Of a stretch of 64,000 bases of DNA, positions 7,625 through 23,327 are shown piece after piece. Both the position numbers and the translations under genes were made by a program. Numbering within the stretch: the first letter of the stretch is position 1; the number at the start of each line of letters is the position of its first letter. This DNA comes from Methanocella arvoryzae MRE50 (GTDB lineage: Archaea > Halobacteriota > Methanocellia > Methanocellales > Methanocellaceae), in assembly GCF_000063445.1 (NCBI RefSeq), contig NC_009464.1, positions 2,604,001-2,668,000 on the forward strand. The letters are read 5' to 3'. Below the pieces are notes generated by a model. It did no database searches and had not been told where the DNA came from. It saw only the letters and a list, made by a program, of their open reading frames with translations.

Positions 7625-7673
7625 AAGTTACTGTAAAAAACATACAATACAAAAAATTTCAGGAAAAATGAAG

Positions 7674-7747
7674 TGGGCCCGAAGGGATTCGAACCCCTGA
7701 TCCCCGCCGTGTAAAGGCGATGTCATAACCAACTAGACCACAGGCCC
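7674..7747 (-). tRNA. tRNA-Val (anticodon UAC)
   Basis: Read on the minus strand, the acceptor arm GGGCCTG pairs with CGGGCCC (one G-U), followed by discriminator A. The anticodon stem TCGCC/GGCGG closes the loop TTTACAC, giving anticodon UAC. The T arm has the usual GTTCGAATC. The CCA end is not encoded, since the genomic bases after the discriminator are CTT. There is no intron. Confidence 0.95.
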
Positions 7748-8249: not shown

Positions 8250-8471
8250 CTATCGAGGCGGGGCCTCCCGGTAGGATTTCCACTTCTCGTAGCAGTCCTG
8301 CAGGCTGGAGCCCACACTCCTGATGTCCCCGCAGTCCTCGCATACGGCGAACTTTTTGCCTTCTTTTTCGAAGTAGATCACTTTTATCCGGCTACTGCTG
8401 CATTTCCTGCAGATCGACCCGGTGGCGACGGGTATGCAGCCTTCAGCCACATCCGATACTTGCTTATGCAT
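8250..8471 (-). CDS. Small zinc-ribbon protein, third gene of the roadblock/KaiC operon
   Basis: The 73-residue protein carries two CxxC pairs (CRKC about residues 21-24 and CEDC about 44-47) in the form of a compact zinc ribbon. After the second pair comes a basic, aromatic tail (DCYEKWKSYREAPPR). It starts 12 bases after the KaiC-like gene stops and is on the same strand, so it is the last gene of a three-gene operon. It may be an adaptor or a nucleic-acid-binding partner of the ATPase. No specific family is recognised. Confidence 0.75.
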   Translation of the reverse strand: MHKQVSDVAEGCIPVATGSICRKCSSSRIKVIYFEKEGKKFAVCEDCGDIRSVGSSLQDCYEKWKSYREAPPR

Positions 8472-8483
8472 CCGTCACGACCG

Positions 8484-9353
8484 TCACTGTGCTACTTTGT
8501 AGTCTTCGATGAGCATGTCCAGGATCTGTTCGGGCTCCATATCTCCCAGATCCGCGCGCTCCAGGTATCTCATAATATTCTTCACCTGCTCCACGTTATC
8601 CTTGTTGACCCTCATGATGGTCTCGTAGGTGCGCTGCTTGAGCTCCGGTGTGATCTTCTTCATACGCTTGCCACTCATTCCTGTGGTATCGATGACGATG
8701 CCAATGCCGAGCACGAAACGGTACGGGAAGTTGTTCTCGCTGTGCCACGATTGCCTCGACTTCTTGATCGATATCATCCGGTTGCCCATGCTCACGCTCG
8801 AAATGTGAAGTATGGTATCAGCCAGGTACATCGGGATGATCGTCTCACTGCCAGTCATTTCACCGGTCACCCCGTGTTCTTCGATAGTGCTGAGCACCGT
8901 TCCCATGCGCTTGGTTTCTTTGAACAGCTGAGAGATGAGCATGCGCTGGTCGTACTTGTTCTCGTTAGCCCAGATCACAGGCGTCAACGGATCTACGACG
9001 ATGCGGGCTTGCGAGCCTTCCCATTCGCTGACAAACCGGGGTAGCTCTTCCTTGATGAAATCTGCGAGGTCTTTGCCCGCGGCCTCCAGGAACACCAGCG
9101 AACCTTTCTCGACGTACTGCTCGATGTCTTCCCAGCCCATGTTCCGGGCCTCTTCGATGATCTGGGATCGAGGCTCTTCGAGGGTGATGTAGATCGCGTC
9201 TGATCCGTTCTCCAGCCCCTTTCGGAGGAATTGCAGAGCCATGGTCGTCTTACCTGTACCAGCCGAGCCAACGAGAATCGTGGCGGAATGCTCGTTGAAG
9301 CCTCCGTCAAGGAGGCTGTCTAAGCCTAGAATGCCAGTCTTGAGCTTTTTCAT
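8484..9353 (-). CDS. KaiC/RadA-fold signalling ATPase
   Basis: The 289-residue protein has one KaiC domain. It begins KTGILGLDSLLDGGF and has a full Walker A (GSAGTGKTTMALQF), a conserved Glu pair after strand 2 (ITLEEPRSQI), and a Walker B-like strand with VDPLTPVIWA. The region SIKKSRQSWHSENNFPYRFVLG is the typical closing part of archaeal KaiC-like proteins. A further helical tail of about 70 residues (EQVKNIMRYLERADLGDMEPEQIL) is unusual and may be the contact for the roadblock partner. The SD AAGGTGA lies before the ATG, and only 4 bases separate it from the roadblock gene. Confidence 0.88.
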   Translation of the reverse strand: MKKLKTGILGLDSLLDGGFNEHSATILVGSAGTGKTTMALQFLRKGLENGSDAIYITLEEPRSQIIEEARNMGWEDIEQYVEKGSLVFLEAAGKDLADFIKEELPRFVSEWEGSQARIVVDPLTPVIWANENKYDQRMLISQLFKETKRMGTVLSTIEEHGVTGEMTGSETIIPMYLADTILHISSVSMGNRMISIKKSRQSWHSENNFPYRFVLGIGIVIDTTGMSGKRMKKITPELKQRTYETIMRVNKDNVEQVKNIMRYLERADLGDMEPEQILDMLIEDYKVAQ

Positions 9354-9357
9354 CTGT

Positions 9358-9924
9358 TCACCTTACCATCCTGTCGATTATCTGTTCAGTGGTCACCGTA
9401 CCAAAGTGCTTTTCTATCTCTCTTAGCAGATCGTGGCTGAAGGCCCGGAACTCCTCGCGGTTTTCCCGCAAGCGACTCTCCAGTGCCTCCCGGCCCACGT
9501 CGACGTTATTCAGGTGGCTGTTGATCATGTCGGCGACAGTCTGAATTTCGAGCATTATCGAGACAACATCGAACTCTTTGTCGAGGATGCAGCCGACTAT
9601 GCCATTTTCCATACTGTATAATATGACCGACCCTTCTGTGGTCTCGAAGATGGTCCTCCGGAGCGGCACGTTTCTCATGCTCTGCATGAGCGGTGTCAGC
9701 TTCCGGACGATCTGCATGAGCGAGCTTTCTTTCTGCCTGGGGACCGCCGTGGTGGTCACCGTAGTGTCCTGGAAGACCTGAGTAACGGTCTCTCCTGTCC
9801 TGGAAATCAGAAACGCGCCGAGGACGCCTTTCCGGTCGAGCAGCCTGGTTAAGTCCTGTTCGACGTTATTTTTCCAGCTCTGTTGTGCTCTCCTCCTCAA
9901 TCTCTGGGGCTCTTCCACAGCCAA
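9358..9924 (-). CDS. Roadblock/LC7-like protein with helical tail
   Basis: The 188-residue protein contains a roadblock/LC7-like domain: LLDRKGVLGAFLISRTGETV, then a middle strand EGSVILYSMENGIVGCILD and the closing helix MLEIQTVADMIN. A charged C-terminal helical region of about 50 residues follows. Roadblock proteins in bacteria and archaea regulate small GTPases or other NTPases. Here the partner is most likely the KaiC-fold ATPase encoded 4 bases downstream. The start is a TTG at 9924 with GGAGGGAGAGG just before it; the GTG two codons later is an alternative. Confidence 0.8.
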   Translation of the reverse strand: MAVEEPQRLRRRAQQSWKNNVEQDLTRLLDRKGVLGAFLISRTGETVTQVFQDTTVTTTAVPRQKESSLMQIVRKLTPLMQSMRNVPLRRTIFETTEGSVILYSMENGIVGCILDKEFDVVSIMLEIQTVADMINSHLNNVDVGREALESRLRENREEFRAFSHDLLREIEKHFGTVTTEQIIDRMVR

Positions 9925-10057
9925 CCTCTCCCTCCTATTCGGTTGTTAATTTAATAATTATCGCATCATAAAATAAACCTTTCTGCTGCCGCAAAGATTT
10001 TTCATGATTGTCCGGAAGTTATTATAATTAGTTGAAGATATAAAAAACTATTGTCTG

Positions 10058-10250
10058 GCAGGCCACAAATCCGCTGTAAGCGCGTAAAGCCTGCCGGCCT
10101 GCAGTAGCATCATAGTTTACGGTAAAAGTGGCCTGCAGTGGCTGAAAAAAGAAGAAAGGTTCATTTTTTGCCGTGCCGCAGAGGTGGCACGGCGCTATCG
10201 CCAGCAGACAATCTGCCCATGGGAGGCTACCTGCATAGGCAGGTTACCTC
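10058..10250. ncRNA. Candidate structured RNA between two KaiC operons
   Basis: The region is rich in perfect stems: GCAGGCCAC (10058-10066) with GTGGCCTGC (10128-10136); inside it CGTAAA/TTTACG, CTGC/GCAG and CGCT/AGCG. After it come GCCGTGCC/GGCACGGC (10170-10193), GCAGA/TCTGC (10204-10216) and a 12-bp stem with mismatches (10223-10250). A TATA-like ATATAAAAA lies at 10038-10046 on the plus strand, although the spacing would put transcription start inside the first stem. It could equally be the 3' end of the KaiC message or a leader of the roadblock operon. No known family is recognised. Confidence 0.35.
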
Positions 10251-10280
10251 TCGGAAAAATATCTTCGGCCCGCTTCAGGC

Positions 10281-10976
10281 TCAGAATACCTCTGACTCCG
10301 AGTGCACGGCTATGCCTTCGTCCGTAATCTCGTAGGGTTTGATGCTCCGGGAATGCTTGTGGCGGCGCATCTTCACTACTTCTACCGCCAGCTTGACGTC
10401 CCTTAGCTGATCTGGCCTCACGTAGCGCAGGATGATCACGCCGTCTGCCACGTACTCTACGAGCCCGTACCGGCTGGAATACGCGTCGGCCCTCGAAGCT
10501 TCAGAAGTGATAAGTGCAGTGACGCCTGTTTCCTTCAGGATCGCGAAGATCTCGAACAAGTTTAGCCGTCTTTCTGCCTCGTCCGAAAACATCATCTCGA
10601 AGAGGGTGATCGAGTCGATGACCAGCCGGGTAGCCCCGAATGTCTTGATGAGCCGGGGCATTTCATTCTTGATCCGGGTCAGTGTGGTCTTGATGTCGTT
10701 GGGATCAAGTCTGATCAGGATCAGGCTGTTATTATCAATATAGGTCTGCAGGTCCCACCCATAGCCTTCAGCTGACTCGACGATCTCGGACTCCCTCTCT
10801 TCCAGGCTCATGTACACTGACTTTTCGCCGTTCTTCAGGCCGTTGACCAGGAACTGCAAGGCTAGCGTGGATTTGCCGGTGCCCATGCCTCCGACCACGA
10901 CGATCATGTGCTTTTCCGGGAAACCCCCCTGAAGCAGTTCGTCCAGCCCTTGTACTCCTGTGCTTAGTAACTTCAT
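10281..10976 (-). CDS. Single-domain KaiC-like ATPase (FlaH-sized)
   Basis: The 231-residue protein is one KaiC domain: STGVQGLDELLQGGFPEKH, Walker A GGMGTGKSTLALQF, the Glu-Glu pair MSLEERESEI, Walker B LVIDSITLFEMMF, and the closing signature MRRHKHSRSIKPYEIT. Its length matches archaellum FlaH, a KaiC-like protein that works with FlaI and FlaJ. It lies next to, but divergent from, a FlaI/FlaJ-like pair, so a similar role is possible but not proven. It follows the degenerate KaiC gene by 16 bases on the same strand, with GGGGTAGAAG before the ATG. Confidence 0.87.
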   Translation of the reverse strand: MKLLSTGVQGLDELLQGGFPEKHMIVVVGGMGTGKSTLALQFLVNGLKNGEKSVYMSLEERESEIVESAEGYGWDLQTYIDNNSLILIRLDPNDIKTTLTRIKNEMPRLIKTFGATRLVIDSITLFEMMFSDEAERRLNLFEIFAILKETGVTALITSEASRADAYSSRYGLVEYVADGVIILRYVRPDQLRDVKLAVEVVKMRRHKHSRSIKPYEITDEGIAVHSESEVF

Positions 10977-10992
10977 TCTTCTACCCCAGTTA

Positions 10993-11832
10993 TTATCTGC
11001 CTAATATCTCTTTGATGTTGGATATCTCAAACCCTCTGCTTGCCGAAACCTTCGTCTCAAAGCGTACGACGTTGTCCTCTTCCAGATATGGCATGAGCCC
11101 CCTGAATTTTTTAATATACATCATGCGCTGTCGCTGGTTGGCGCCTGTCGATTCCCAGTTGAAGACCAGGACTCCATCTGCGCAGTCCGAGACTTCCTCT
11201 TCGTTACTGCGATCGAATATGTTGGAGGTTAGCAGAGCATATATAGTAGAGTCCCACTGCTTGGACATGCGCCCTATGCCTTTCAGGAGAGACACAAAGT
11301 CTGTCCACGATACCTTATCTGCTACTGCGCTGCGCAGCACGTCTGTCAGTGAATCAATGATCACGAGGTTGTTGGGCGCATACGTATCCAGCGTCTCGAC
11401 AAGCAGTTCGTATAAAGACTTATTTTTCTGCTCTGATTTTAGCTCGCTCAGGGATCCCATGCTGCCGGTCGTCCAGGTTATGGGTACCTGTGTTCTCGCA
11501 AAGTACTTGGTTGACAGGTCGACGAAGGTCAGGGCACTATTCAGTTCTGAAGCGCTTGCTAATTTTAGAGTAGCAAAACTCTGTAAGACGTTCTCCTTGC
11601 TCTTTGTGAACGATATGTACACGATCTTCTCCGGGAGCTTCGCATCCGGCTTCGCCCTCAGGTGATCGTACTTCATCTTCGATAGCATGAGGGCGGACGA
11701 ATAGACGAACTCCTGACTGCCTGCTCCCACTTCTCCCAGGAGTAATACGAACGATCCCGCAGGGAAGCCTCCTTTAATCACCGGATCAAAGGACGTTATG
11801 CCTGTCGGAACCTTTCTATAAATCGTCTCCAT
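10993..11832 (-). CDS. Degenerate KaiC-fold protein (pseudo-ATPase)
   Basis: The 279-residue protein has the KaiC architecture: VPTGITSFDPVIKGGFPAGS, a P-loop position, the strand IVYISFTKSKEN, Walker B-like NLVIIDSLTDVL and the closing region MMYIKKFRGLMPYLEEDNVV. Its P-loop reads GEVGAGSQE, so the Walker A lysine is missing and nucleotide hydrolysis is unlikely. It is the first gene of a two-gene unit with an intact KaiC protein 16 bases downstream. An inactive/active heteromer, as seen in other P-loop pairs, is a reasonable inference. Confidence 0.85.
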   Translation of the reverse strand: METIYRKVPTGITSFDPVIKGGFPAGSFVLLLGEVGAGSQEFVYSSALMLSKMKYDHLRAKPDAKLPEKIVYISFTKSKENVLQSFATLKLASASELNSALTFVDLSTKYFARTQVPITWTTGSMGSLSELKSEQKNKSLYELLVETLDTYAPNNLVIIDSLTDVLRSAVADKVSWTDFVSLLKGIGRMSKQWDSTIYALLTSNIFDRSNEEEVSDCADGVLVFNWESTGANQRQRMMYIKKFRGLMPYLEEDNVVRFETKVSASRGFEISNIKEILGR

Positions 11833-12152
11833 ACATACCCATACCTATAGTGTTCTATAATATCTGATACTCTCTATAATACTTTCAGAGCTTATCTATT
11901 AATTCGAACCTATTTTTCCCGCTTTGATTTATATCTATGGCGTGATTGATTTAATCTTATCGTTACCTGCGGGTAATTACATAAACATAACGTAAATTGC
12001 CATTTATTTCCATTTTGGAGGATTATTTGCTTTCTAATTTACAATTACGGCAATATTTAACGATAAAGATTATATCGGATGATAATAGACTAACTTTAAT
12101 TATTTGTCAATGGGTAGGTTTCCTGAAGGTAGAGGTATTGTATGGTGTGTGT
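11833..12152. promoter_or_regulatory. AT-rich divergent promoter region between the KaiC pair and the pilus locus
   Basis: About 320 bases, clearly AT-richer than the flanking genes, separate the divergent starts. TATA-like runs appear on both strands (for example around 11850-11900 and 12050-12080). Control of both units from this shared region is likely. No clear operator palindrome was seen. Confidence 0.5.
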
Positions 12153-13847
12153 ATGAAACGGATTACGCCAGTATCTTTTTCCCTCTTCTCGTCAGCAGGA
12201 GGTGCAATTCCTGTAACGGCTGAAGAGCATAAGATCGATGATGCCGGGTCCCGGCTGAAAAAGATGCCCCTTCCGGGCAGCCCCGAGATGCCGGCATGCG
12301 CTGATGGCGCGCAAGAAAAGCCTCCGGCAAGCGTGGCGCTTAAGGACGGCATTGTCGAAGCAGAGCGCTACTGGCTGAAAGAGCCTTTCTCTTTCGCCGT
12401 TATACTCTTCGATTCCCGGACCAGGGAGTACACTTACAACGTCAACGAGCCGACACTCACTGAATTCGAGGCCGAGCTGCTGGAACGCATATATAGTGAT
12501 CTGCGCGACATCCTCATTCGCAGCGACATGGAAAAAGCAGGGTCTGATCGCTCCGGGGTTTTGCGGTCAAGGTGCGATACGCTGCTGGGCATCTACGGCA
12601 TCAAGCTGGATAATGCCTCCAGGGAGCGAATACAGTATTATCTGGAGCGCAACTACCTGGGCTATGGTAAAATCGACGCTCTGATGCAGGACAACCGTAT
12701 AGAGGACATATCCTGTAACGGTGTCGACATTCCCATCTTTCTGTTTCACCAGAAATACCAGAACATTAAAACCAATATCTCCTTCAGCGAGGCGGAGCTT
12801 AACTCCATGGTGGTTAAGCTTGCACAACGCGGGGGCCGGCATATCTCAGTTGCCATGCCCATCGTAAGCGCTGCGTTGCCGAACGGTTCCCGTATCGAAG
12901 CTACGCTCGGCCGGGAAATTACCACTCACGGCAGCTCTTTCACTATCAGGCGGTTCAGGACAGATCCGTTCACGCCGATCGACCTCCTGAACTATAACAC
13001 CATGTCCCTGGAAATCCTTGCGTACCTCTGGCTGGCCATCGAGAACAACCGGAACCTGATCTTCGCGGGCGGAACGGCCTCGGGAAAAACCTCTTCGCTC
13101 AACGCCGTATCGCAGTTCATACCTCAGAACTCCAAGGTCATCACCATAGAAGATACCCGGGAGCTGACGCTTTATCACAGCAACTGGATCGCCGGACTGA
13201 CCCGGGAGTCTCAGGTGCAGGGCAATTCCGTGGAGATCGAAATGTATGATCTGTTGCGTGCAGCTTTGCGCCAGCGCCCCGAGTACATCATCGTGGGCGA
13301 GGTGCGGGGCAAGGAAGCGCTCACACTGTTCCAGGCGATGAACACCGGCCACACGACTTACTCGACCATGCATGCGAGCTCCATTCAGGCCGTGGTCAAC
13401 CGCCTGCTGAACGATCCTATCAATGTCCCGAACATGATGCTCACCGCTCTCAACATCGTGTGTATCCAGGAGCTGGTGTTCCAGGAGGGCAAGAAGATCC
13501 GCCGGAACAAGGCTATCGTGGAGATCACCGGCGTCGATCCACGGACCAACAACCTCCGGATCAACGAGCTGTACCGGTGGAATTCGGTCGACGACACCTT
13601 CGAGGCCATGGGGGACTCCGTCGTGATGGCGGACATCATGGCCCGGCGGGGATGGGACCGCAACAGGCTTACAGAAGAGATCGCTAACCGGTGTAAAGTT
13701 CTGGACTACCTGCGTAACAAAGGCATACGTGACTATCGACACATTACTACAGCCATCAATGCCTACTATGTGATGCCCGCCGAAGTTATGGAAATGATCA
13801 GAAACGATACGTTTGCCGGCACCCTTGATGAGGGTATCAGAAGGTAA
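12153..13847 (+). CDS. Type IV pilus/archaellum-type secretion ATPase (GspE/FlaI superfamily)
   Basis: From the ATG at 12153 the product is 564 residues. The N-terminal half is variable. The ATPase half has the box RRFRTDPFTPIDLL, Walker A GGTASGKTSSLNAV (about 306), an Asp box around VITIEDTRELTLYH, Walker B-region YIIVGEVRGKEAL, and the His box NTGHTTYSTMHA. These are all hallmarks of archaeal pilus/archaellum assembly ATPases. A longer frame from a TTG at 11997 is possible but runs through AT-rich promoter-like DNA. The membrane platform gene starts 5 bases after the stop, so the two are co-translated. Confidence 0.92.
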   Translation: MKRITPVSFSLFSSAGGAIPVTAEEHKIDDAGSRLKKMPLPGSPEMPACADGAQEKPPASVALKDGIVEAERYWLKEPFSFAVILFDSRTREYTYNVNEPTLTEFEAELLERIYSDLRDILIRSDMEKAGSDRSGVLRSRCDTLLGIYGIKLDNASRERIQYYLERNYLGYGKIDALMQDNRIEDISCNGVDIPIFLFHQKYQNIKTNISFSEAELNSMVVKLAQRGGRHISVAMPIVSAALPNGSRIEATLGREITTHGSSFTIRRFRTDPFTPIDLLNYNTMSLEILAYLWLAIENNRNLIFAGGTASGKTSSLNAVSQFIPQNSKVITIEDTRELTLYHSNWIAGLTRESQVQGNSVEIEMYDLLRAALRQRPEYIIVGEVRGKEALTLFQAMNTGHTTYSTMHASSIQAVVNRLLNDPINVPNMMLTALNIVCIQELVFQEGKKIRRNKAIVEITGVDPRTNNLRINELYRWNSVDDTFEAMGDSVVMADIMARRGWDRNRLTEEIANRCKVLDYLRNKGIRDYRHITTAINAYYVMPAEVMEMIRNDTFAGTLDEGIRR

Positions 13848-13852
13848 CCCGG

Positions 13853-15811
13853 ATGGTCAGCGCTCTGAGCCCCATCGATGGTATCACATACCGGTTGTTC
13901 GGCCAATATGCAAGCAAGAACCGTCCGGCATATTACGACCTGCAGCTACACATGCAGAAGGCCAACATCCCGGTGCCGCTCGATATCTACGTGTCACGCA
14001 TGCTGTTCTTCAGCGTCCTGGGCGGGATATCGGTATCGCTGATCTGCCTGCTCACGGCGCTAATGGTAAAATTTACCTCGCCCGACGGGACTTTTGTGCC
14101 CTGGCGAGTGTCTCCTGCCGACAGCTTCCTGCTGCAAGTAATCAGCAGTGAGCTTTTCCTCATCCTCCTCATCCTTGGCGTGTCTTTTCCGGCCACCTTT
14201 TTCCTGGTTTATGTGACGTTCCGTAACTATCCTCTGTATAAGTCCAGTATAAGGCAGAGCGCTATAGATCAGATGCTGCCCCATGCGGTGACCTTTATGC
14301 ACGCGATGCGCAGCGGCGGCATGAGCCTGCTGGATATCTTCAGGGCGATCAACGAGCATCGGGAGATCTACGGCGAGGTGACCCTCGAGTTTCAGGCTGT
14401 GGTACAGGGAGTCGAACTGCTGGGCATGGACCTGATCACCTCCCTGCGGCATGCTGCAACAATAACCCCTTCCGATCACCTGAAAAACTTCTTCGAGAGC
14501 ACCGCAACTCACATGGAGAGCGGCGGAGACCTCGAGAAATTCCTGAGGACGAGGGCAGACCAGTTCCAGGCAATCGCTGTCCAGGAGCACAAGACGCTTC
14601 TGGAGCTGCTAAGCATGCTGGCGGAAGTATACGTCACTGCCTTTGTCGCCGGGCCGCTGTTCCTGATCACCATCCTGGTGTCCATGGGTATGGTGTCATC
14701 TGGCAACACCGGCCAGATCGACCTGCTGGTCTACATCGCAATTCCTCTGGGCTCAGTCATGTTCATCTGGCTGCTCATCGCTATGGGGCTGGAAAGCGAC
14801 GATACCAAAGTGATCGTTCTCAAGCGTCAGATGGACGAGTTTGCCGGAGTCACGAAGCTCCCCGGCAATCCGCAGTCCGCGCGTATCCTGAAGCTCGCGG
14901 CGCTCCGATACCGGATACGCCGATTCCTTGATGACCCGTTAAACGCTTTTGTAAACAAGCCCTACCAGATACTGTACCTGACTGTACCTATCGCTGCGTT
15001 GCTCTTTATCGGCTTAGCCTATCCCTACTTCAGCCTTCCTTACTTCAGCATGATCTCCCACGTCGACGATATCCTGCTGCTCGCTGCTGCGGTGGCAATC
15101 ATACCTTTCATCATCTGCTGGGAACTGCGCTCGAAAAAGGTCAGAAAAATGGACGCGGCCGTGCCGGAGTTCCTGAAGCGCCTCGCGTCTTTCAATGAGT
15201 CCGGGCTGACGCTGACCATGGCGATCAAAGCGCTGCTGAACTCGAACATGGGCGTGCTCAACTCCGAGATCCGGAAAATCTGGACAGATATCGAGTGGGG
15301 TGCCGATGCTAAAGAAGCGCTCATCCGCTTCGAGTACCGGGTGAACACGGCATCCATCAGAAGAGTGGTGACGCTGATCACCAAGGCCAGCGAATCCACT
15401 GGCGACATAAAGGAAACCTTGTTCATCGCGGCGGCAGATGCAGCGGCAATCCAGAGCGAGAGGGAAGAGCGGTTCCTGAACATGCTGCTATACCTGTCGA
15501 TCATCTACATCTCGTTCTTCGTGTTCCTCTACATCCTGTACACCCTGAGCACTGTATTCCTGCCAGTAGTGCCGGCTACGCCCATTAATGATCAGCTGAG
15601 CATGGCTTCGGCGGCGAGTACTGCAGCGTCATTCTCCGGAGGTATAGATGTAGAGATGTACAAGCTAATCTTTATGCATGCAGTCCTCATACAGGGCCTG
15701 TTCTCCGGGCTGGTCGCAGGCATGATGGGCGAAGGCAATGTCTACTCGGGGCTGAAACACTCGGCGGTCATGATTTTGATCGGCTATGTCGTATTCATGT
15801 TGTTCTTATAG
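13853..15811 (+). CDS. Pilus membrane platform protein with tandem T2SSF domains (FlaJ/TadC-like)
   Basis: The 652-residue protein has two copies of the T2SSF unit. Each combines a cytoplasmic helical bundle (for example MLPHAVTFMHAMRSGGMSLL and VPEFLKRLASFNESGLTLTM) with membrane helices. About eight or nine membrane segments are visible in total, including a pair at about 40-125 and a final one near the C-terminus. Tandem T2SSF architecture is typical of archaeal platform proteins such as FlaJ. It forms the inner core on which the ATPase acts. It follows the ATPase directly and precedes two pilin-like genes, so this is a complete core except for the prepilin peptidase. Confidence 0.9.
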   Translation: MVSALSPIDGITYRLFGQYASKNRPAYYDLQLHMQKANIPVPLDIYVSRMLFFSVLGGISVSLICLLTALMVKFTSPDGTFVPWRVSPADSFLLQVISSELFLILLILGVSFPATFFLVYVTFRNYPLYKSSIRQSAIDQMLPHAVTFMHAMRSGGMSLLDIFRAINEHREIYGEVTLEFQAVVQGVELLGMDLITSLRHAATITPSDHLKNFFESTATHMESGGDLEKFLRTRADQFQAIAVQEHKTLLELLSMLAEVYVTAFVAGPLFLITILVSMGMVSSGNTGQIDLLVYIAIPLGSVMFIWLLIAMGLESDDTKVIVLKRQMDEFAGVTKLPGNPQSARILKLAALRYRIRRFLDDPLNAFVNKPYQILYLTVPIAALLFIGLAYPYFSLPYFSMISHVDDILLLAAAVAIIPFIICWELRSKKVRKMDAAVPEFLKRLASFNESGLTLTMAIKALLNSNMGVLNSEIRKIWTDIEWGADAKEALIRFEYRVNTASIRRVVTLITKASESTGDIKETLFIAAADAAAIQSEREERFLNMLLYLSIIYISFFVFLYILYTLSTVFLPVVPATPINDQLSMASAASTAASFSGGIDVEMYKLIFMHAVLIQGLFSGLVAGMMGEGNVYSGLKHSAVMILIGYVVFMLFL

Positions 15812-15822
15812 GTTGGTGGGCT

Positions 15823-16254
15823 ATGCTACGGAACGGAAAAACTGAGGGAAAATCGGACGGGGCGGCATCCGAAGTTATCGGCGAAATGATGATGCTCGTA
15901 ATCACAGTCGTAATCTTCATCATCCTGATCGCGGCAGTGAGCACTATCATCACCAAGCCGAAGAACGAGATCATCCATATGGACGCGCATGCGGTGAACG
16001 ATACGATCCTGGCCATCCGTCATACCGGGGGCGATACGATCACCTACGGCCAGATCGCCGTAGTCATCAACAGTCAAGTAATACTCGCGACGGCATCAGA
16101 TACGAATGGGAACGGCAGGTGGGATCTTGGGGAGAACCTGTATCTCAGGAATGTGGATACCCGGCAGAGGATGAGCATCATGGTCTACAATAGCATGACT
16201 AACCATGTCCTGGGCGATTTCACCATCGATACCATGCCCGAGATGGTGAGGTGA
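15823..16254 (+). CDS. Archaeal type IV pilin-like protein
   Basis: The 143-residue protein begins with a charged leader (MLRNGKTEGKSDGAA). It then has SEVIGEMMMLVITVVIFIILI, the archaeal pilin N-terminal motif with a Val-Ile-Gly followed by a hydrophobic helix. A small globular domain follows, with a Ca-like loop DTNGNGRWDLGE (Asp/Asn rich). The leader and helix suggest cleavage by a class III prepilin peptidase, not encoded here. It starts 11 bases after the platform gene. It is probably a pilus subunit or minor pilin. Confidence 0.85.
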   Translation: MLRNGKTEGKSDGAASEVIGEMMMLVITVVIFIILIAAVSTIITKPKNEIIHMDAHAVNDTILAIRHTGGDTITYGQIAVVINSQVILATASDTNGNGRWDLGENLYLRNVDTRQRMSIMVYNSMTNHVLGDFTIDTMPEMVR

Positions 16255-16334
16255 ATCTTAATGGACGACAATCTGACGAATAAAATTACACTGTATAAAC
16301 CGTCCGATATCAGCCCTGACTTAAAGGTGATATC

Positions 16335-18419
16335 ATGCCCATGATACGGTCAGACCGTGCGGTCTCTAACGTCATCGGTGCGGTCCTTGTTCTGGCACTG
16401 CTGATCACGGTCGTAGCAACCGTAAAGATGGTTTACGTGCCGGACATGAAAAAGGAAGCCGAGTCAGTGCACATGCAGAACGTCATCGACGACATGCAGA
16501 ATCTGAAGACGCAGATATGTACCATCCAGGCCTCCTCCACGAGCGGCAACGGCTTCACGACCAGCTCTCCGATCGAGATGGGCGGCGGCTCTCTGCCTGT
16601 TATCGACCCATCCTCCTCCAGCGGCACCATTAAAGTCGACCCTGATTACGGTAACTTTTCCATTATCGCCTACTCGAACAACAAGCTGATCACCGATAAC
16701 AACTCCATGATCACTACCCGCGGCCCTGCGCCGATGGGACGCCTGGCCTATGCTTCCAGCAATCACTTCTACGTCGATCAACAGGTCGACTACGAGTGCG
16801 GCATGCTCGTGCTCTCTCAGACGGGCGGCCTCGCCATGATCGCTTCGCCGCCTGTATCGGTCTCCCGGGTCTACAACGACCCGAATACGACTGCTATTGT
16901 AACGGCAAACCCTACTAGGATCGCCGGAACCCGGCAGTCCGTGAGCTCGACCGGCACCAGTACTATTAAAACGACCGTGCTCCCGATTTACAACGTGATC
17001 AATACCAACAAGGTTATGAACGTCACCATAACCGTAAAAAGCAACCATTCGCTGTTGTGGTATTCTTACTTCGAGCAGGTGATGGCTACTTCAGGCCTTA
17101 CTGAGGGTATCAACTATGTGATTACCATGATAGACCCGGTGACTGTCAGCCTGTTCATCCAGGGAAGCGGCATTAAAGATGACGTAATCCTGTCTTCGAT
17201 CGATTCTCTGGTGATCACCGAGATCGACGATGGCGGGCAGACCATATACCCGACCGCAACACCTGGTAGCGTGCCGAGCGCTACACCTGCCGCTTCGCCG
17301 ACCGCGACGCCCACTTCAACGCCGATTCCCGTTCCTGCGGCTTCCATCCAGGCCACCCCTGCGAGCGGAACCGCTCCGCTTACGGTGAACTTCCTGGGTA
17401 GCGGCACGAATAATGCGACTTCGTTCGAATGGGACTTCGGCGACGGCAGCCCCCACATGTATGGTTCGAGCGTATCTCACACGTACACAACTGCGGATAC
17501 CTATGCCGTCTCGTTGGTAGCCAGCAACGCTGGCGGTAGCAGCGCTCCAGCCACAGCCCAGATTGTCGTGAACAGGCCTGTGGTTACAGAGTCGCTTTAC
17601 CTGACAAAATCGGGCTCCATGAGCACGGCCATGCCTGCGGACGGAAGTACAACGATTCCCTTCCCGATACTCGGGTTATACCAGACCAGTGAGAAGTGGA
17701 CTTCTCCTGCTTTCGCTACAGACTACGTTATCCAGCAGCCGTCCAACACAGACCTGTACATTAAGAAGGACGGATTATTAACGTTGATCAACAGCGTATC
17801 GGCTAAGCTGGAGATCGTGGAGGCCTCCGGGGCACGTACGACGGTGATGTCTGCAGGCAAGGGCGAGCTACTTTCGCTTGAACTTATCGGCAACGACGAC
17901 GTCTCCATACTGAGGATGTCCATGGCTCAGCAGGGCCCTATTACCGCGCCTAAAGGCAGCCACCTCGAGTTGACGGTAACCTGCTATTCCCTGGTGGGCC
18001 TGTCGGGACTCACCATCTACGAGGGCTCAGGATATCCCTCCGGAGTGTCCATGAGTACGCCAACATATGTGGCCGTCAGCGACCTCAAACTGAGCGACAC
18101 GAACGGCAACCCTGTCAGCACGATCCCCCAGTCGGGCACACTGCGCGTCTGGGCGAAGGTGACCGATCCCTTCGGCATTACGAAGGACCTCAAGAGCACT
18201 ACCCTGACCATCTATTCGCCCTCAGGCAGCACAATCTACGGCCCGACTGCCATGACCGGCATCAGAGACGATTCCGGCAGTCCGCCGGCCTGGAGGGAGT
18301 ACCAGAACGATGTGGCCATCGGTACCGGTCTCAGCAAGGGCGCGTACACCGTAGTCGTGAGGGCGACCGATATGAATGGCGTTACCGTGAGCAAGACTCT
18401 GCAACTCAGGGTCACTTAG
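16335..18419 (+). CDS. Pilin-like N-terminus fused to a PKD domain and large extracellular region
   Basis: The 694-residue protein begins MPMIRSDRAVSNVIGAVLVL, with the archaeal pilin motif (VSNVIG) and a hydrophobic helix, like the preceding pilin. A Ser/Thr-rich region and a proline/threonine linker (about 305-330) lead to one PKD domain (about 335-413, SFEWDFGDGSPHMYG). A further large beta-rich region then runs to the C-terminus. SD AGGTGA sits just before the ATG. It is far larger than a usual pilin and may be a tip adhesin or a surface protein anchored through the pilus machinery. A 27-codon frame at 16261-16344 lies before it and overlaps its start; its coding status is unclear. Confidence 0.87.
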   Translation: MPMIRSDRAVSNVIGAVLVLALLITVVATVKMVYVPDMKKEAESVHMQNVIDDMQNLKTQICTIQASSTSGNGFTTSSPIEMGGGSLPVIDPSSSSGTIKVDPDYGNFSIIAYSNNKLITDNNSMITTRGPAPMGRLAYASSNHFYVDQQVDYECGMLVLSQTGGLAMIASPPVSVSRVYNDPNTTAIVTANPTRIAGTRQSVSSTGTSTIKTTVLPIYNVINTNKVMNVTITVKSNHSLLWYSYFEQVMATSGLTEGINYVITMIDPVTVSLFIQGSGIKDDVILSSIDSLVITEIDDGGQTIYPTATPGSVPSATPAASPTATPTSTPIPVPAASIQATPASGTAPLTVNFLGSGTNNATSFEWDFGDGSPHMYGSSVSHTYTTADTYAVSLVASNAGGSSAPATAQIVVNRPVVTESLYLTKSGSMSTAMPADGSTTIPFPILGLYQTSEKWTSPAFATDYVIQQPSNTDLYIKKDGLLTLINSVSAKLEIVEASGARTTVMSAGKGELLSLELIGNDDVSILRMSMAQQGPITAPKGSHLELTVTCYSLVGLSGLTIYEGSGYPSGVSMSTPTYVAVSDLKLSDTNGNPVSTIPQSGTLRVWAKVTDPFGITKDLKSTTLTIYSPSGSTIYGPTAMTGIRDDSGSPPAWREYQNDVAIGTGLSKGAYTVVVRATDMNGVTVSKTLQLRVT

Positions 18420-18445
18420 TGCTGGTACCCGGGAAAAGAGGATGA

Positions 18446-18492
18446 CAGTACGGGGAGCTGTATAGCCGGTCCCCGTACTGCATACATTTTTT
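18446..18492 (+). terminator. Terminator of the pilus operon
   Basis: Perfect 11-bp arms (CAGTACGGGGA and its complement) at 18446-18456 and 18470-18480 are followed by a T-rich run (ATTTTTTACT). It lies 26 bases after the PKD-pilin stop and before the aminopeptidase gene. Confidence 0.75.
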
Positions 18493-18582
18493 ACTGTCCC
18501 GGTAGCCCTGTGCTGTCAAGGGCGATGAAAGACTATTATAGAGATGAGTGCATAAGAGTACTCAGGTTACGGAGTTGTTATT

Positions 18583-19644
18583 TTGGCGACGCTGAACGAA
18601 GCAGCAAAAGTGGCCATGAGAGACGTCATGGGCCTCAGGGAAGGAGAAGAAGTCCTGATCATCACCAACTTCGAGGGAGAAGTATTCCCGATCGCGAAGG
18701 CGATCTTCGAGGAGACGAAAGCACTGGGCGGCAAGCCCGTCATCATGGTCCAGGAGATGAAGACGACCTACACGTACGCCGAGCGGCTGGTCCGGAAAGC
18801 CATCGAGGCAGAGCCCGACATCTACGTCTCGCTCTCCGCCCACAAGCTGGGTAAGGATCCTTATGGCCTGAACATCGGCTACGTCGGCCGGGACGGCAAG
18901 AAGTACCAGCACATCATCGACAAAGTCATGGACGGCGACAGGAGGGTCAGAGGTTTCTGGTCCCCGACCACTAACGTGGCCATGTTCGAGCGCTGCGTAG
19001 CAGTCGACTACCAGGCCATGCAGGAACTCGCAGCCCGCCTCAAGAAGGTGCTGGATGCGGGCAAAGAAGTCCACGTCACATCCCCGGCAGGCACCGACGT
19101 CACCTTCTCCATCGACGGGCGCAAGGCTATGCTGGACGACGGCAACTACACAGCCCCAGGCTCCGGCGGCAACCTGCCCGCAGGCGAAACTTTCATATCG
19201 CCAGTCGTGGGCAGCACGAAAGGTACCATCGTCTTCGACGGCACCATCGACCTGGTTCCCAAAGCGATGATCCCGAAGCAGCCGGTCAGGCTGACATTTA
19301 AAGACGGCTACGTCGACAAGATCACCGGTGGAGAAGAGGCCACCGAGCTTCTGAACGTCATCATGAAAGGCGAACAGATGGCCCGGGAAAAAGGTATGGC
19401 GGAACAGGAGAAGAACTGCCGCCACCTCGGCGAATTGGGAATAGGCATCAACTATGCAGCGAAGATGACCGGCAACCTGCTGGAGGACGAGAAGCTCGGC
19501 AAGACCGTCCACTTCGCCATCGGCAGCAACTACGACTACGACGCAGAGGCGACCATTCATCAGGACTGCCTCGTCATGAACCCGGATATGTGGGTCGACG
19601 GGAAGCAGATCATGAAGAACGGCGAGCTCCTCAGCAACTTCTAG
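18583..19644 (+). CDS. M29-family metallo-aminopeptidase
   Basis: The 353-residue protein matches the M29 aminopeptidase (AmpS/thermophilic leucyl aminopeptidase) family. It has DGNYTAPGSGGNLPAGE with the first metal-ligand Glu, the helix NCRHLGELGIGIN with a second Glu, and GSNYDYDAEATIHQDCLV with His and Asp ligands near the end. Usual length is 370-410, so this is a slightly short member. It removes N-terminal residues from peptides in the cytoplasm. The start is a TTG with GGAG nine bases upstream. It has its own unit after the pilus operon terminator. Confidence 0.9.
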   Translation: MATLNEAAKVAMRDVMGLREGEEVLIITNFEGEVFPIAKAIFEETKALGGKPVIMVQEMKTTYTYAERLVRKAIEAEPDIYVSLSAHKLGKDPYGLNIGYVGRDGKKYQHIIDKVMDGDRRVRGFWSPTTNVAMFERCVAVDYQAMQELAARLKKVLDAGKEVHVTSPAGTDVTFSIDGRKAMLDDGNYTAPGSGGNLPAGETFISPVVGSTKGTIVFDGTIDLVPKAMIPKQPVRLTFKDGYVDKITGGEEATELLNVIMKGEQMAREKGMAEQEKNCRHLGELGIGINYAAKMTGNLLEDEKLGKTVHFAIGSNYDYDAEATIHQDCLVMNPDMWVDGKQIMKNGELLSNF

Positions 19645-19686
19645 GCCGGCTGCGCCGGCCAGCGTGCCGGCCGCATCTCTTTTTTA
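19644..19686 (+). terminator. Terminator of the aminopeptidase gene
   Basis: GGCCGGC (19644-19650) pairs with GCCGGCC (19666-19672). The hairpin is followed by CTCTTTTTTAAC. Confidence 0.65.
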
Positions 19687-19726
19687 ACACAAATTTCTAC
19701 CATAATATCCCGGAGATACAAGTCTA

Positions 19727-19964
19727 ACCACAGATACTCACGGAGTGGCTGTTTTACCACAGAGGCACAGAGATGCACAGAGGCTCACAGAGTTTTGGTT
19801 TACCACAGAGGCACAGAGATGCACAGAGATTTTCTGATAATTGGGCAAGTGCATAATCAATAATATAGTAAGTCTCTGTGTTTCTCTGTGCCTCTGTGGT
19901 GAGCTGTTCTCTGTGTTTCTCTGTGCCTCTGTGGTAAACAGGCTCTCTGTGGGTCTCTGTGGTG
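19727..19964. repeat. CACAGAG word-array palindrome, copy 2
   Basis: Left-arm words (TACCACAGAGGCACAGAG, twice) are mirrored by CTCTGTGCCTCTGTGGT (twice) on the right, with an unrelated AT-rich centre. It lies between the converging aminopeptidase and two-domain KaiC genes, as copy 1 lies between converging genes at 2.2 kb. Confidence 0.85.
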
Positions 19965-19986
19965 AATGGTTCTACATGTATCTATA

Positions 19987-21426
19987 TTATAGCTTCATGA
20001 GACTTATTTTCCCCTCGTCGACTCTGACCGCATGGGGCTCGTAGCTGACCGCTCCGGGCGCTTTTCTCACGCGCAGCAGCCAGTAGAGGTCCATTTTCCA
20101 GGTGTCGACGACTACGTCAGTGTGCTGCTCGATCGTGGGCGAGAGGCCGGCGCCGTAGCCGATGTCTGCGGAGGTGATCACTGTCATGCCTGCGGCTGCG
20201 AGGGCGTCGACCAGGCCGGCGAAGACGTTTCTGGCATGAGTGGTATCCCACTCCTCGCCCAGCCCTTCAAGGTCGAAGAAGGCTATCCACCCGTGCCTTT
20301 TTCCGGCTGTCAGCGAGGTGATCTCCGGGGCGAGCTTTCCGAGGCCGCCTGCCTGTTCTGTAGCGAAGGACACGATGCTGCCCAGGGCTTTTCCCGCGAC
20401 AGGGCCTTTGAGTACAATGATCAGGCGGCCGGCTTTCTGGGCTTCCTTTGCTTCGGGGCCGAGCTGTTCCTCCAGCGTAACCTCGTCGGTGATGCCCAGG
20501 GATGGGGCGAAGAGCACGACGCCTTCTCCAGCTTTCAGGGCAGCGTCGATCATCTGCCGGAGCATGCTGCCGAAGGGTTCTCTGCCGTCGGTGTTAAAGT
20601 GCCACCGCTCACCTGTAGAGAAGCCGCCGGTCAGGGCATCGAGGTCAGGAATGCCGGTAGTGGCGCCTTTGCGGCTTATCGTTATCCTTCCGGGCGGGAG
20701 GATCCTGATGCCGTCGCGGGTGATATTGTACAGGTACCTGCCGCTCAGGTGGCTTTTGCCCCGGAGCTTCGTGACCCCGATGGTCCGGCCCCGGGTGTTC
20801 TGCAGGGTGTCGGTGCTCCACAGGGGGCTGATCTCAGTGCTGCCGAGATCGATGATCGCGTCGGTGAGGAACCGCTCGGTCCCGTCGCCTTCGGACTGCT
20901 CTGCGGTGAGCAGAGTAGTGCAGCCCATGCGGGAAACCCAGGCACTGAAGAGCAGCGTCTTCTTCCGCCGGTCGATCTCGTTTCCGATCAGCATGTTGAT
21001 CGAGGTGATCGAGTCTACGATAAGGTGATCGATGCTCCTCCGGGTGACCTTCTTCTGGATGCCGTCGAAAAAGTCGCCTACGTACTGCTCGTCCACCATC
21101 TGCCCGAGGGAATAGTCCTGCAGTTCCACGTATCCTCTTTTAATTTTGGGGTCGTAGAACTCCATGTTGATGCCCCCGCTGATCAGGTCGAGGTTGTAGA
21201 ACGACAGGCTGGAAGCGTACCGGTTTACCTTGTACAGCGGCTCGCATGTGCTGACAAACAGGACCCTCTCTCCCCGGCTGGCGTGGTAAAATGCATACTG
21301 GAGCGCCAGCACTGTCTTCCCGGCTCCCGGAGGCCCGGACAGCAGCACAGTCGAGCCTTTTGGCAGGCCGCCGCAGAGCAGCTCGTCGAGTCCTTCGATA
21401 CCTGTGGTGACAGTGTCTTTACCCAT
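19987..21426 (-). CDS. Two-domain KaiC-like protein with an inactive second domain
   Basis: From the ATG at 21426 the protein is 479 residues. Domain 1 (about 1-240) is intact: TTGIEGLDELLCGGLPKGST, Walker A GPPGAGKTVLALQY, Walker B HLIVDSITSINML. Domain 2 starts KGATTGIPDLDALTGGFSTG, but its P-loop position reads NTDGREPFGSML with no GKT, so it should not hydrolyse ATP. Canonical KaiC has two active domains; this one is asymmetric. A TTG 36 bases upstream is an alternative start. It converges with the aminopeptidase and is the fourth KaiC-fold protein within 13 kb. Confidence 0.87.
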   Translation of the reverse strand: MGKDTVTTGIEGLDELLCGGLPKGSTVLLSGPPGAGKTVLALQYAFYHASRGERVLFVSTCEPLYKVNRYASSLSFYNLDLISGGINMEFYDPKIKRGYVELQDYSLGQMVDEQYVGDFFDGIQKKVTRRSIDHLIVDSITSINMLIGNEIDRRKKTLLFSAWVSRMGCTTLLTAEQSEGDGTERFLTDAIIDLGSTEISPLWSTDTLQNTRGRTIGVTKLRGKSHLSGRYLYNITRDGIRILPPGRITISRKGATTGIPDLDALTGGFSTGERWHFNTDGREPFGSMLRQMIDAALKAGEGVVLFAPSLGITDEVTLEEQLGPEAKEAQKAGRLIIVLKGPVAGKALGSIVSFATEQAGGLGKLAPEITSLTAGKRHGWIAFFDLEGLGEEWDTTHARNVFAGLVDALAAAGMTVITSADIGYGAGLSPTIEQHTDVVVDTWKMDLYWLLRVRKAPGAVSYEPHAVRVDEGKISLMKL

Positions 21427-21613
21427 GGTCGCAACACCTGCTAGTTGACTTATAATCAGCAAGCAGGTTTATCTCGGGGATATTATAAAGCTATGCCCGT
21501 AATAGTTATCTCTAAAGGCGTATAATAATTAATGGGTTCTAGACAGGATAATTATATATATCGCAATGATGTTTTAATTATATAATTACAAAAATCTTGC
21601 CGGGAATGGTGCT

Positions 21614-22063
21614 ATGAAGATCGACAAAATGAACAAAAAAATCTTGAACATCCTGCAGCGCAACGGACGAATGACGTATAAGGAAGTCGCCAAGAAGATC
21701 GACAGGGCGCAATCGACTGTCCGTGACCGCATCGGCATCATGGAAGAGGATGGTGTCATCAAGGGCTATACTGTCGTCATCAACAAGAAGAAAGCAGGGC
21801 TTGACTGCTATGCCATCATCCAGTGCAAGGTGGACCCGGCCGGCCTCGACGAAGTGACCCGGAGACTTCAGCGAGTAGAGAACGTCCTGCAGGTGTACCA
21901 CACCAGCGGCGACCGCAACCTGACGTTCATGATGGCCACCTGCGACTACGATGAGATGAAGCGGATCCTGAGCGACAAAGTGGCCCCGCTCGGCATCAAG
22001 GACATCGAGACCAAGATCGTGATGGATTCCGTGCGCGAGATGGCGTTCACAGATATAATGTAA
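21614..22063 (+). CDS. Lrp/AsnC-family regulator
   Basis: The 149-residue protein is a standard Lrp/AsnC protein: N-terminal winged helix (KILNILQRNGRMTYKEVAKK ... STVRDRIGIMEEDGVIKGYT) and C-terminal RAM ligand domain (about 65-140). It has its own promoter with ATTATATATATC about 60 bases before the start. It differs clearly from the two paralogues downstream. It may respond to an amino acid; the ligand cannot be told. Confidence 0.9.
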   Translation: MKIDKMNKKILNILQRNGRMTYKEVAKKIDRAQSTVRDRIGIMEEDGVIKGYTVVINKKKAGLDCYAIIQCKVDPAGLDEVTRRLQRVENVLQVYHTSGDRNLTFMMATCDYDEMKRILSDKVAPLGIKDIETKIVMDSVREMAFTDIM

Positions 22064-22076
22064 CTTACGTAACCCA

Positions 22077-22109
22077 ATGCTGCGCTGCCCGGCGCAGCAT
22101 CCATTTTTC
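22077..22109. terminator. Bidirectional hairpin between converging Lrp genes
   Basis: ATGCTGCGC (22077-22085) pairs perfectly with GCGCAGCAT (22092-22100), followed by CCATTTTTC. It lies between converging Lrp genes. Confidence 0.65.
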
Positions 22110-22141
22110 GCGTTGCCTTTAATAAAACCAGTAATCCCGGA

Positions 22142-22645
22142 TCAGACTTCTTTCAGATTGTCGTACTTGAGTGGCGTCTCCAGGATCTTGCGGGTGGTCA
22201 GGATCGTGTTGGTCGCCATGACTCCGTCGATGGCCGATATGTTGCCGATGACTTCCCGCAGCAGGTCTACGTCTCTGGTGCGGAGCTTCAGCATGAGGTC
22301 GAATGGCTCCAGAGTTTCATGGATCTCCAGCACTTCTCTAAGCGCGAGCAGTCTGTTGATGACCTCCTCTTTCTTTTTGCCCACCATCGCGCTGCGTTCC
22401 AGCTCGATGCCGACAAAGGCGATCGTGTTGAGCTCGAGAATCGAAGGGTCGAACAGGATGGTAAAGCGTTCGATAATCCCCCCGTCCTTCAGCCGACAAA
22501 TGCGCTTGTGGATGGTGGAAGGCGATACATTCAGCTCTTCACCGATGGCGGCGAGCGAAGTGTTGCTGTCTTCGCAGAGTCTCCTGATGATAAAGAGGTC
22601 TGTGTCGTCGAGGTTGCCTTTGAACTTGGAGCTCATTTCATTCAC
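22142..22645 (-). CDS. Lrp/AsnC-family regulator, paralogue 1
   Basis: The 167-residue protein has the winged helix DTDLFIIRRLCEDSNTSLAA ... STIHKRICRLKDGGIIERFT and a RAM domain. It shares long identical stretches with the next gene (ERFTILFDPSIL, IDGVMATNTILTT), so they are recent duplicates. An extension beyond the usual end (RKILETPLKYDNLKEV) differs between the two. It is transcribed from its own promoter; 184 bases separate the pair. Confidence 0.9.
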   Translation of the reverse strand: MNEMSSKFKGNLDDTDLFIIRRLCEDSNTSLAAIGEELNVSPSTIHKRICRLKDGGIIERFTILFDPSILELNTIAFVGIELERSAMVGKKKEEVINRLLALREVLEIHETLEPFDLMLKLRTRDVDLLREVIGNISAIDGVMATNTILTTRKILETPLKYDNLKEV

Positions 22646-22829
22646 TGTCGCAAAGGAGGAGATAACATAGTTAATAGCTTGCTATACGTATATAAACCTT
22701 ACCCGGGCGAGTAAAAGAATTATCAGAAAATGGGCATAATCAATAAAATTTGCGATAAAGTTGCCAGAGTTCCCCCTGGTGAAAAAGGTGTCTGGCACCT
22801 CAGCCATCATGTACTATCCATGCATGGCC

Positions 22830-23327
22830 TTAAACGCCGGAATTCGAGTTAGGGACTTCTACGTAGCGCTCGAGAATCCTGTTGGTAGTCAGTATAGTAT
22901 TGGTTGCCATTACGCCGTCTATGGCAGCAATGCTCGTGATGATCCCTCTTAGCTTTTCCACGTTTCTGGTACGGAGCTTCAGGATGAGGTCGAACGGAGC
23001 GAGGGTTTCATGGATCTCCATGATATACGGTATCTCAGCTAGCGATCCAAGTACCTCTTCCTTTTTCTTGCCCATGAGGGCGTCCCGCTCCAGCTCGATA
23101 CCTACGAACGCGACTGTACGTAAGTTCAGTATCGAGGGATCGAAAAGGATAGTGAATCGCTCGATAATGTGGTTCTCCCTCATCTGGTTGATGCGTTTGT
23201 GCACCGTCGATGCGGAGACTCCCAACTCCTGCGCTATGTCGGATAGCGAGGCACTCGAGTCTTTGCACAGCTTCTCAATAATCTTGATGTCGACAGCATC
23301 CAGGTCCTTAACCGATTTGTAAGCCAT
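22830..23327 (-). CDS. Lrp/AsnC-family regulator, paralogue 2
   Basis: The 165-residue protein is a close paralogue of the gene downstream on the same strand, with the same helix-turn-helix (STVHKRINQM in place of STIHKRICRL) and RAM domain (FVGIELERDALMGKKKEEVL). The tandem duplication, plus the divergent Lrp 0.2 kb away, makes a three-regulator cluster. Lrp proteins form mixed oligomers, so the two may work together. Confidence 0.9.
   Translation of the reverse strand: MAYKSVKDLDAVDIKIIEKLCKDSSASLSDIAQELGVSASTVHKRINQMRENHIIERFTILFDPSILNLRTVAFVGIELERDALMGKKKEEVLGSLAEIPYIMEIHETLAPFDLILKLRTRNVEKLRGIITSIAAIDGVMATNTILTTNRILERYVEVPNSNSGV

Follow-up and report, generated by a model that had tools for sequence, protein, structure and literature searches.

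A 64,000-nucleotide stretch of the Methanocella arvoryzae MRE50 genome, referred to here as the window (G000:C1:2604001-2668000), carries on opposite strands the genes of a type IV pilus (T4P) and a pair of genes for proteins of the KaiC fold. The pilus genes encode the assembly ATPase PilB, the platform protein PilC and two pilin-like proteins; the pair encodes KaiC231 and a pseudo-KaiC, psK (psK279). A preliminary description of the window had reported four KaiC-fold proteins together with a pilus-like locus, genes that Pfam searches confirmed as described, and had proposed that they form a KaiC-based control module. The pair and the pilus locus comprise the following features:

10281-10976, minus strand: KaiC231, a single-domain KaiC ATPase of 231 amino acids (PF06745, 214 bits; TIGR03880, 357.7 bits, above the cut-off of 249.45)
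10993-11832, minus strand: psK, 279 amino acids (PF06745, 53 bits)
11833-12152, no strand: psK-PilB intergenic region, presumed to hold divergent promoters; the divergent orientation is conserved
11872-11889, minus strand: element resembling BRE (transcription factor B recognition element)/TATA, TCTGAAAGTATTATAGAG, 57 nt upstream of psK
12153-13847, plus strand: PilB-type T4P assembly ATPase, 564 amino acids from an ATG start (T2SSE, 126 bits; PilB3_C PF23989, 42.5 bits); an alternative TTG start at 11997 would give 616 amino acids
13853-15811, plus strand: PilC/TadC-type platform protein, 652 amino acids (T2SSF, 101 bits, in two stretches)
15823-16254, plus strand: archaeal type IV pilin, 143 amino acids (Pilin_N PF07790, 36.8 bits), with orthologues in loci L037 and L041
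16335-18419, plus strand: large pilin-like protein, 694 amino acids (DUF7289, 51 bits; PKD_4, 54 bits)

The locus has all features of a euryarchaeal T4P of the PilB3 type (clade 2), namely T2SSE with PilB3_C, T2SSF and Pilin_N pilins. PilB scores 400.8 bits with the ArlI model, below the cut-off of 550, and no ArlF/G/C/D/E genes were noted among the open reading frames (ORFs) of the pilus locus. The 694-residue protein, whose N-terminal half is conserved in L037 and L041, is judging by its domains probably a minor pilin or adhesin. Upstream of psK, all three Methanocellaceae loci (3/3) share TCTGAAAGTAT followed by an A/T-rich stretch, 55-79 nt from the gene.

The active site is kept in KaiC231 and lost in psK. 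KaiC231 has an intact P-loop (GGMGTGKS; family pattern GxxGTGK[ST]) and the catalytic [DE]E pair in SLEER. psK has GEVGAGSx and SFTKx, with neither the Walker-A lysine nor the catalytic glutamate pair in 40 of 40 sequences, and is on the strength of these motifs predicted to be unable to hydrolyse ATP. KaiC231 is a member of TIGR03880 (KaiC_arch_3), a model that carries no function, and differs from it in nothing that was tested; it has a single domain, unlike the two-domain KaiC of the Kai clock. For psK the best NCBIfam model is ArlH (FlaH; NF052589; 42.0 bits, E 8e-11, below the cut-off of 215), as it is for haloarchaeal psK and for a second pseudo-KaiC family, psK2, described below. The AlphaFold2 model of psK (pLDDT, the predicted local distance difference test, 90.6; pTM, the predicted template modelling score, 0.90) has the KaiC fold according to Foldseek, with KaiC as first match and no FlaH among the 50 best. 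The preliminary description had compared the 231-residue protein, as FlaH-sized, with FlaH. As a counterpart of FlaH, KaiC231 was rejected, being a TIGR03880 member that reaches only 51 bits with the ArlH model; it is the neighbouring psK that has ArlH as its best model, and the true ArlH, ArlI and ArlJ are encoded elsewhere, in a separate archaellum locus at about 2.80 Mb whose ArlH scores 371 bits with PRK06067 and 256 bits with NF052589.

The remaining KaiC genes and their neighbours flank the pilus locus:

8250-8471, minus strand: Zn-ribbon ORF, 73 amino acids
8484-9353, minus strand: KaiC289, 289 amino acids (PF06745, 121 bits)
9358-9924, minus strand: roadblock-like protein RB188, 188 amino acids, a weak Roadblock assignment
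18583-19644: M29 peptidase gene, between the pilins and the two-domain KaiC
19987-21462, minus strand: two-domain KaiC, 491 amino acids, of which the N-terminal domain alone scores

In the genome that we take to be Methanocella paludicola SANAE (G001), a six-gene block consisting of KaiC231, psK, PilB, PilC and both pilins is missing. At the empty site RB188 (L039:7306-6806) is followed 245 bp further by the M29 gene (L039:7551), the roadblock/KaiC289/Zn-ribbon operon is complete, and the two-domain KaiC is found at another site, next to its Lrp genes and without the pilus block. The entire region is syntenic with the window in G003, and in G002, presumably Methanocella sp. PtaU1.Bin125, the pilus genes and the KaiC231/psK pair lie together on one 6.9-kb contig (contig 189, 6,861 bp, which we equate with MVRA01000189.1). 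Since M. paludicola lost the pair together with the pilus and kept the others, the KaiC231/psK pair (10281-11832) belongs to the pilus locus, unlike the other two KaiC genes. A single control module of all four KaiC genes would be in keeping with their location within 13 kb and with the synteny kept in G003, yet M. paludicola, which has neither pilus nor pair, retains the two-domain KaiC as well as the roadblock/KaiC/Zn-ribbon operon, and in Methanomicrobiales loci the pair is accompanied by neither of these. Such a module is very improbable, and it was rejected on the M. paludicola empty site. What survives of the module as originally proposed is the association of the pair with PilB/PilC, while the two-domain KaiC and the roadblock/KaiC/Zn-ribbon operon are neighbours belonging to the genome backbone; in a relative they occur unlinked to pilus genes, which the preliminary description had itself named as refuting. 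The Roadblock identity of RB188 is weak: the window protein has no Pfam match, and Robl_LC7 was found at E=0.0088 in one of three orthologues. The roadblock-like/KaiC289 operon is kept in 4/4 Methanocellales genomes independently of the pilus, as a separate KaiC system.

A psK profile built from three sequences was searched at E<=1e-12 against 394 Halobacteriota genomes from 136 genera and matched in 189 of the genomes and 82 of the genera, nearly always as a single copy. Comparison of gene order, which the preliminary description had suggested, covered about 100 neighbourhoods and revealed that the divergent PilC-PilB / psK-KaiC arrangement is conserved far beyond Methanocella. A KaiC gene lies directly downstream of psK on the same strand in 54 of 55 non-haloarchaeal psK loci, and in 22 of those 54 the psK stop and the KaiC start overlap by one base (ATGA), the commonest arrangement; in the window the two are 16 bp apart. 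PilB is found divergently upstream of psK in 41 of the 55, across 12 family codes and mostly at a distance of <=300 bp, a non-random sample as the loci were picked from the strongest psK matches. In several of the 14 loci without a divergent PilB, the contig ends a short way upstream of psK. Since close relatives can retain gene order, the arrangement might reflect chance divergent neighbours or operon inertia with no functional link. Against the conservation over 12 family codes, the loss of the block as a whole and a lock-step with PilB3 in haloarchaea that lack the linkage (see below), this is barely credible; conservation rules out chance proximity for the KaiC231/psK pair, but not for KaiC289 and the two-domain KaiC.

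Some loci depart from the usual layout. Two genomes (G081 and G026; L094 and L149) have two psK copies, one in a locus where KaiC231-psK faces PilB-PilC across a 1.7-kb gap and the other without a nearby PilB. At the rearranged locus L111 (G234), psK, two KaiCs, PilC and PilB are all on the same strand.

Haloarchaeal psK has no linkage to PilB and no KaiC231 next to it. The cluster in which it lies there (L115-L133, L138-L143) is conserved and includes genes for a coiled-coil Zn protein, a TFS-like Zn ribbon and a beta-RFAP synthase-like protein, named from our reading of the sequences and bearing no obvious relation to pili. Even so, a high-scoring PilB, the true PilB3, is present in 67 of 67 psK-positive haloarchaeal genomes and in none of the 11 psK-negative ones, where a true PilB3 query retrieved only 44-51% paralogues. 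One genome, G347, was left out of the 67, its psK being split and diverged and its PilB3 diverged too (61%). In genus g31, two psK-negative members have paralogues only, and a PilB3 fragment (63%) is present in their psK-positive sister G156. Methanomicrobiales show the same contrast, with a high-scoring PilB in 65 of 65 psK-positive genomes (11 checked directly, at 63-100% identity, or by linkage) versus 0 of 18 psK-negative genomes, all 18 of which yielded only 42-48% paralogues with an orthologous PilB query. Nine of the 65 belong to the diverged genus g65, in which PilB scores are lower and the linkage is kept in both loci read (L134, L135). Absences of psK were confirmed with a deeper psK profile. 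The Fisher values for these comparisons are tiny but take no account of shared ancestry. More telling is that seven families (f1, f4, f11, f18, f21, f23 and f33) each show the contrast internally, as do genera g6, g31 and g37. In a tree of the ATPases, among which L084 and L171 repeat one another, haloarchaeal PilB3 falls inside the same set as the psK-linked PilB. Functional coupling of the KaiC231/psK pair to the PilB/PilC pilus is very likely. The haloarchaeal pattern bears as well on the idea of a mixed ring, built of psK and KaiC231 and acting only on itself, as a clock-like timer for which the pilus is one of several outputs. KaiC offers a precedent for mixed active and inactive layers, and the two genes are nearly always adjacent, often with the one-base overlap; however, haloarchaea keep psK without an adjacent KaiC231 and, in our sample, never without PilB3, and KaiC231 is single-domain, so that we consider this idea improbable.

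A second, paralogous PilB-PilC pair is located at 908 kb in the M. arvoryzae genome and is accompanied by a pseudo-KaiC of its own:

L052:7952-8704 (G000, about 911952-912704): psK2, 250 amino acids, directly downstream of the paralogous PilB-PilC

psK2 is co-directional with PilC and is without any P-loop. The order PilB-PilC-psK2 was seen in seven loci (L052, L163, L164, L170, L178, L179 and L180); at L182, which was inspected as well, psK2 was not seen. Of the 84 genera sampled, 48 have a member of the family at E<=1e-10; among the weakest matches, some are partial. Its predicted structure has the KaiC fold, with FlaH (4YDS) at rank 8 of the structural matches. psK and psK2 are sisters (tree support 100/96; profile score 125, E 4e-18), and in the full KaiC-family tree, from which L218 was left out, a branch separates them and ArlH from the active KaiCs (98/90). 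This wider kinship is weakened by the drop in support to 85-89/78 when either pseudo-KaiC family is omitted and by profile scores that do not separate psK-ArlH (74.7) from psK-KaiC231 (73.7). The evidence for psK and psK2 grouping with ArlH is moderate. An origin of psK as a tandem duplicate of KaiC231 was rejected, since a psK+KaiC231 clade fails the approximately unbiased (AU) test (p=0.003).

Two kinds of role can be envisaged for a KaiC pair coupled to a pilus. It could be a signalling hub that makes no contact with the motor and regulates pilus gene expression by way of transcription factors or other partners, similar to CirA in Haloferax or to the 'KaiC hub' proposal. Many archaeal KaiC-like proteins have been proposed as hubs (PMC5847659, citing Makarova 2017), CirA alters motility gene expression (PMC13286277), and KaiC231 is a generic TIGR03880 KaiC. 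We nevertheless regard a pure expression hub as unlikely: no DNA-binding gene was seen as a member of the pair, psK groups with ArlH and with psK2, the latter encoded right after PilC, and psK tracks PilB3 itself even where unlinked. We favour a direct partnership with the motor in view of the haloarchaeal pattern and of the PilB-PilC-psK2 operon, in which all genes run in one direction. It is thus reasonably probable that KaiC231 and psK are dedicated cytoplasmic partners of one PilB/PilC motor, psK as an ArlH-like non-hydrolysing partner and KaiC231 as an ATP-driven switch. This reading builds on co-localisation, loss as a block, the lock-step phyletic pattern, the lost and kept active sites and the kinship of the pseudo-KaiCs, all of which are observed.

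In the archaellum, the KaiC-like ArlH, which has no ATP hydrolysis activity, stimulates ArlI; it binds ArlI as an unphosphorylated hexamer and leaves upon autophosphorylation (PMC8978795, PMC12024892). By analogy, psK, as a ring of KaiC fold or as one subunit of such a ring, would dock on the PilB hexamer from the cytoplasmic side, like ArlH on ArlI, and this docking would license or tune PilB. psK would then be a PilB companion frozen in the nucleotide-free state. KaiC231, a complete KaiC ATPase presumably made from the same mRNA, would act as the switch: its ATP cycle or autophosphorylation might join, remodel or release the psK-PilB complex and so turn pilus assembly on or off. KaiC231 would thereby supply the ATP-driven switch that ArlH carries within itself. 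Docking on PilB, ring formation and the action of KaiC231 through psK are all modelled on ArlH, and for the ArlH-like docking of psK on PilB we judge the case to be almost evenly balanced, with a slight lean towards doubt. Besides the choice of loci and the shared ancestry already mentioned, several findings weigh against a motor partnership of this kind. Haloarchaeal psK is without an adjacent KaiC231, hence the pair is separable. Methanosarcinaceae carry PilB orthologues of the same group and no psK, so psK is not universally needed. Finally, the mechanism cannot be identical to that of ArlH, because ArlH keeps its P-loop and needs ATP whereas psK is without a P-loop.

Among the Methanosarcinaceae, the genome G383, which we take to be M. 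acetivorans, has no psK and encodes a different KaiC (232 amino acids) about 0.5 kb upstream of PilB (L160:7543 onward). This protein is a possible replacement of the motor companion.

Among known systems, the closest likeness of psK is to ArlH (NF052589/PRK06067), likewise a KaiC-fold non-hydrolysing partner encoded with an ATPase of the T4P superfamily and a platform protein. ArlH differs in keeping the P-loop (GENDTGKS, as opposed to GEVGAGSx), and psK, at 279 amino acids, lies outside any arl operon and is accompanied by an active KaiC. The PilB3-C3 adhesion pilus of Haloferax volcanii has an ATPase of the same group (PilB3_C domain), and haloarchaeal psK tracks PilB3; there, however, psK is unlinked and the PilB3-C3 locus is without pilins. 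HVO_2876, a gene with an adhesion and motility mutant, was considered as a conceivable psK of this species. KaiC-like proteins with inactivated ATPase domains were reportedly proposed as archaeal signalling parts by Makarova et al. in mBio in 2017. The preliminary description had held that a KaiC-regulated appendage would be new. This is true only in part, as Makarova et al. 2016 (PMC4858521) already described, in a general way, KaiC-family ATPases (arCOG01171/1174/1175, 1172/1173) as strongly associated with archaeal T4P, near them or in operons, including clade 2 (PilB3/PilB4-type) and Methanomicrobia, and suggested that in clade 2 the FlaH-like partner is FleN/MinD. The main text of that paper, leaving its supplements aside, describes no pseudo-KaiC/KaiC pair, divergent unit, lock-step with PilB3 or second pseudo-KaiC family. 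Nor did we find a description of psK or psK2, of the pairing of psK or of its lock-step with PilB3 in the accessible literature, of which supplements and the mBio 2017 KaiC paper formed no part. To judge from that literature, psK, the paired families and the lock-step of psK with PilB3 appear new.

The presence of a KaiC-fold pseudoenzyme exactly when PilB3-type motors are present, in two archaeal classes, challenges the archaellum-only view of the KaiC-like motor part and suggests that an archaellum component thought unique has counterparts in ordinary archaeal pili. psK also offers a possible source for ArlH. We tentatively propose, as a conjecture on the doubtful side, that ArlH is one branch of an old KaiC-fold 'motor companion' family of euryarchaeal type IV filament ATPases, of which psK and psK2 would be sister branches, devoid of nucleotide binding through loss and attached to two T4P motors that are paralogous to each other; the archaellum would then have inherited its timer from a pilus already having one. 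The question 'why does only the archaellum need a KaiC?' would become answerable, and Haloferax, with established PilB3 pili and adhesion assays, is a simple test ground.

Outside the pair and the pilus genes, Lrp/AsnC genes adjoin the two-domain KaiC (window 19987-23327), a neighbourhood retained in G001 and G003. The M. arvoryzae genome, a single contig of 3,179,916 bp, has 13 PF06745 matches. A tRNA-Val gene (tac; 7673-7747, minus strand) is the sole tRNA within the first 30 kb of the window.

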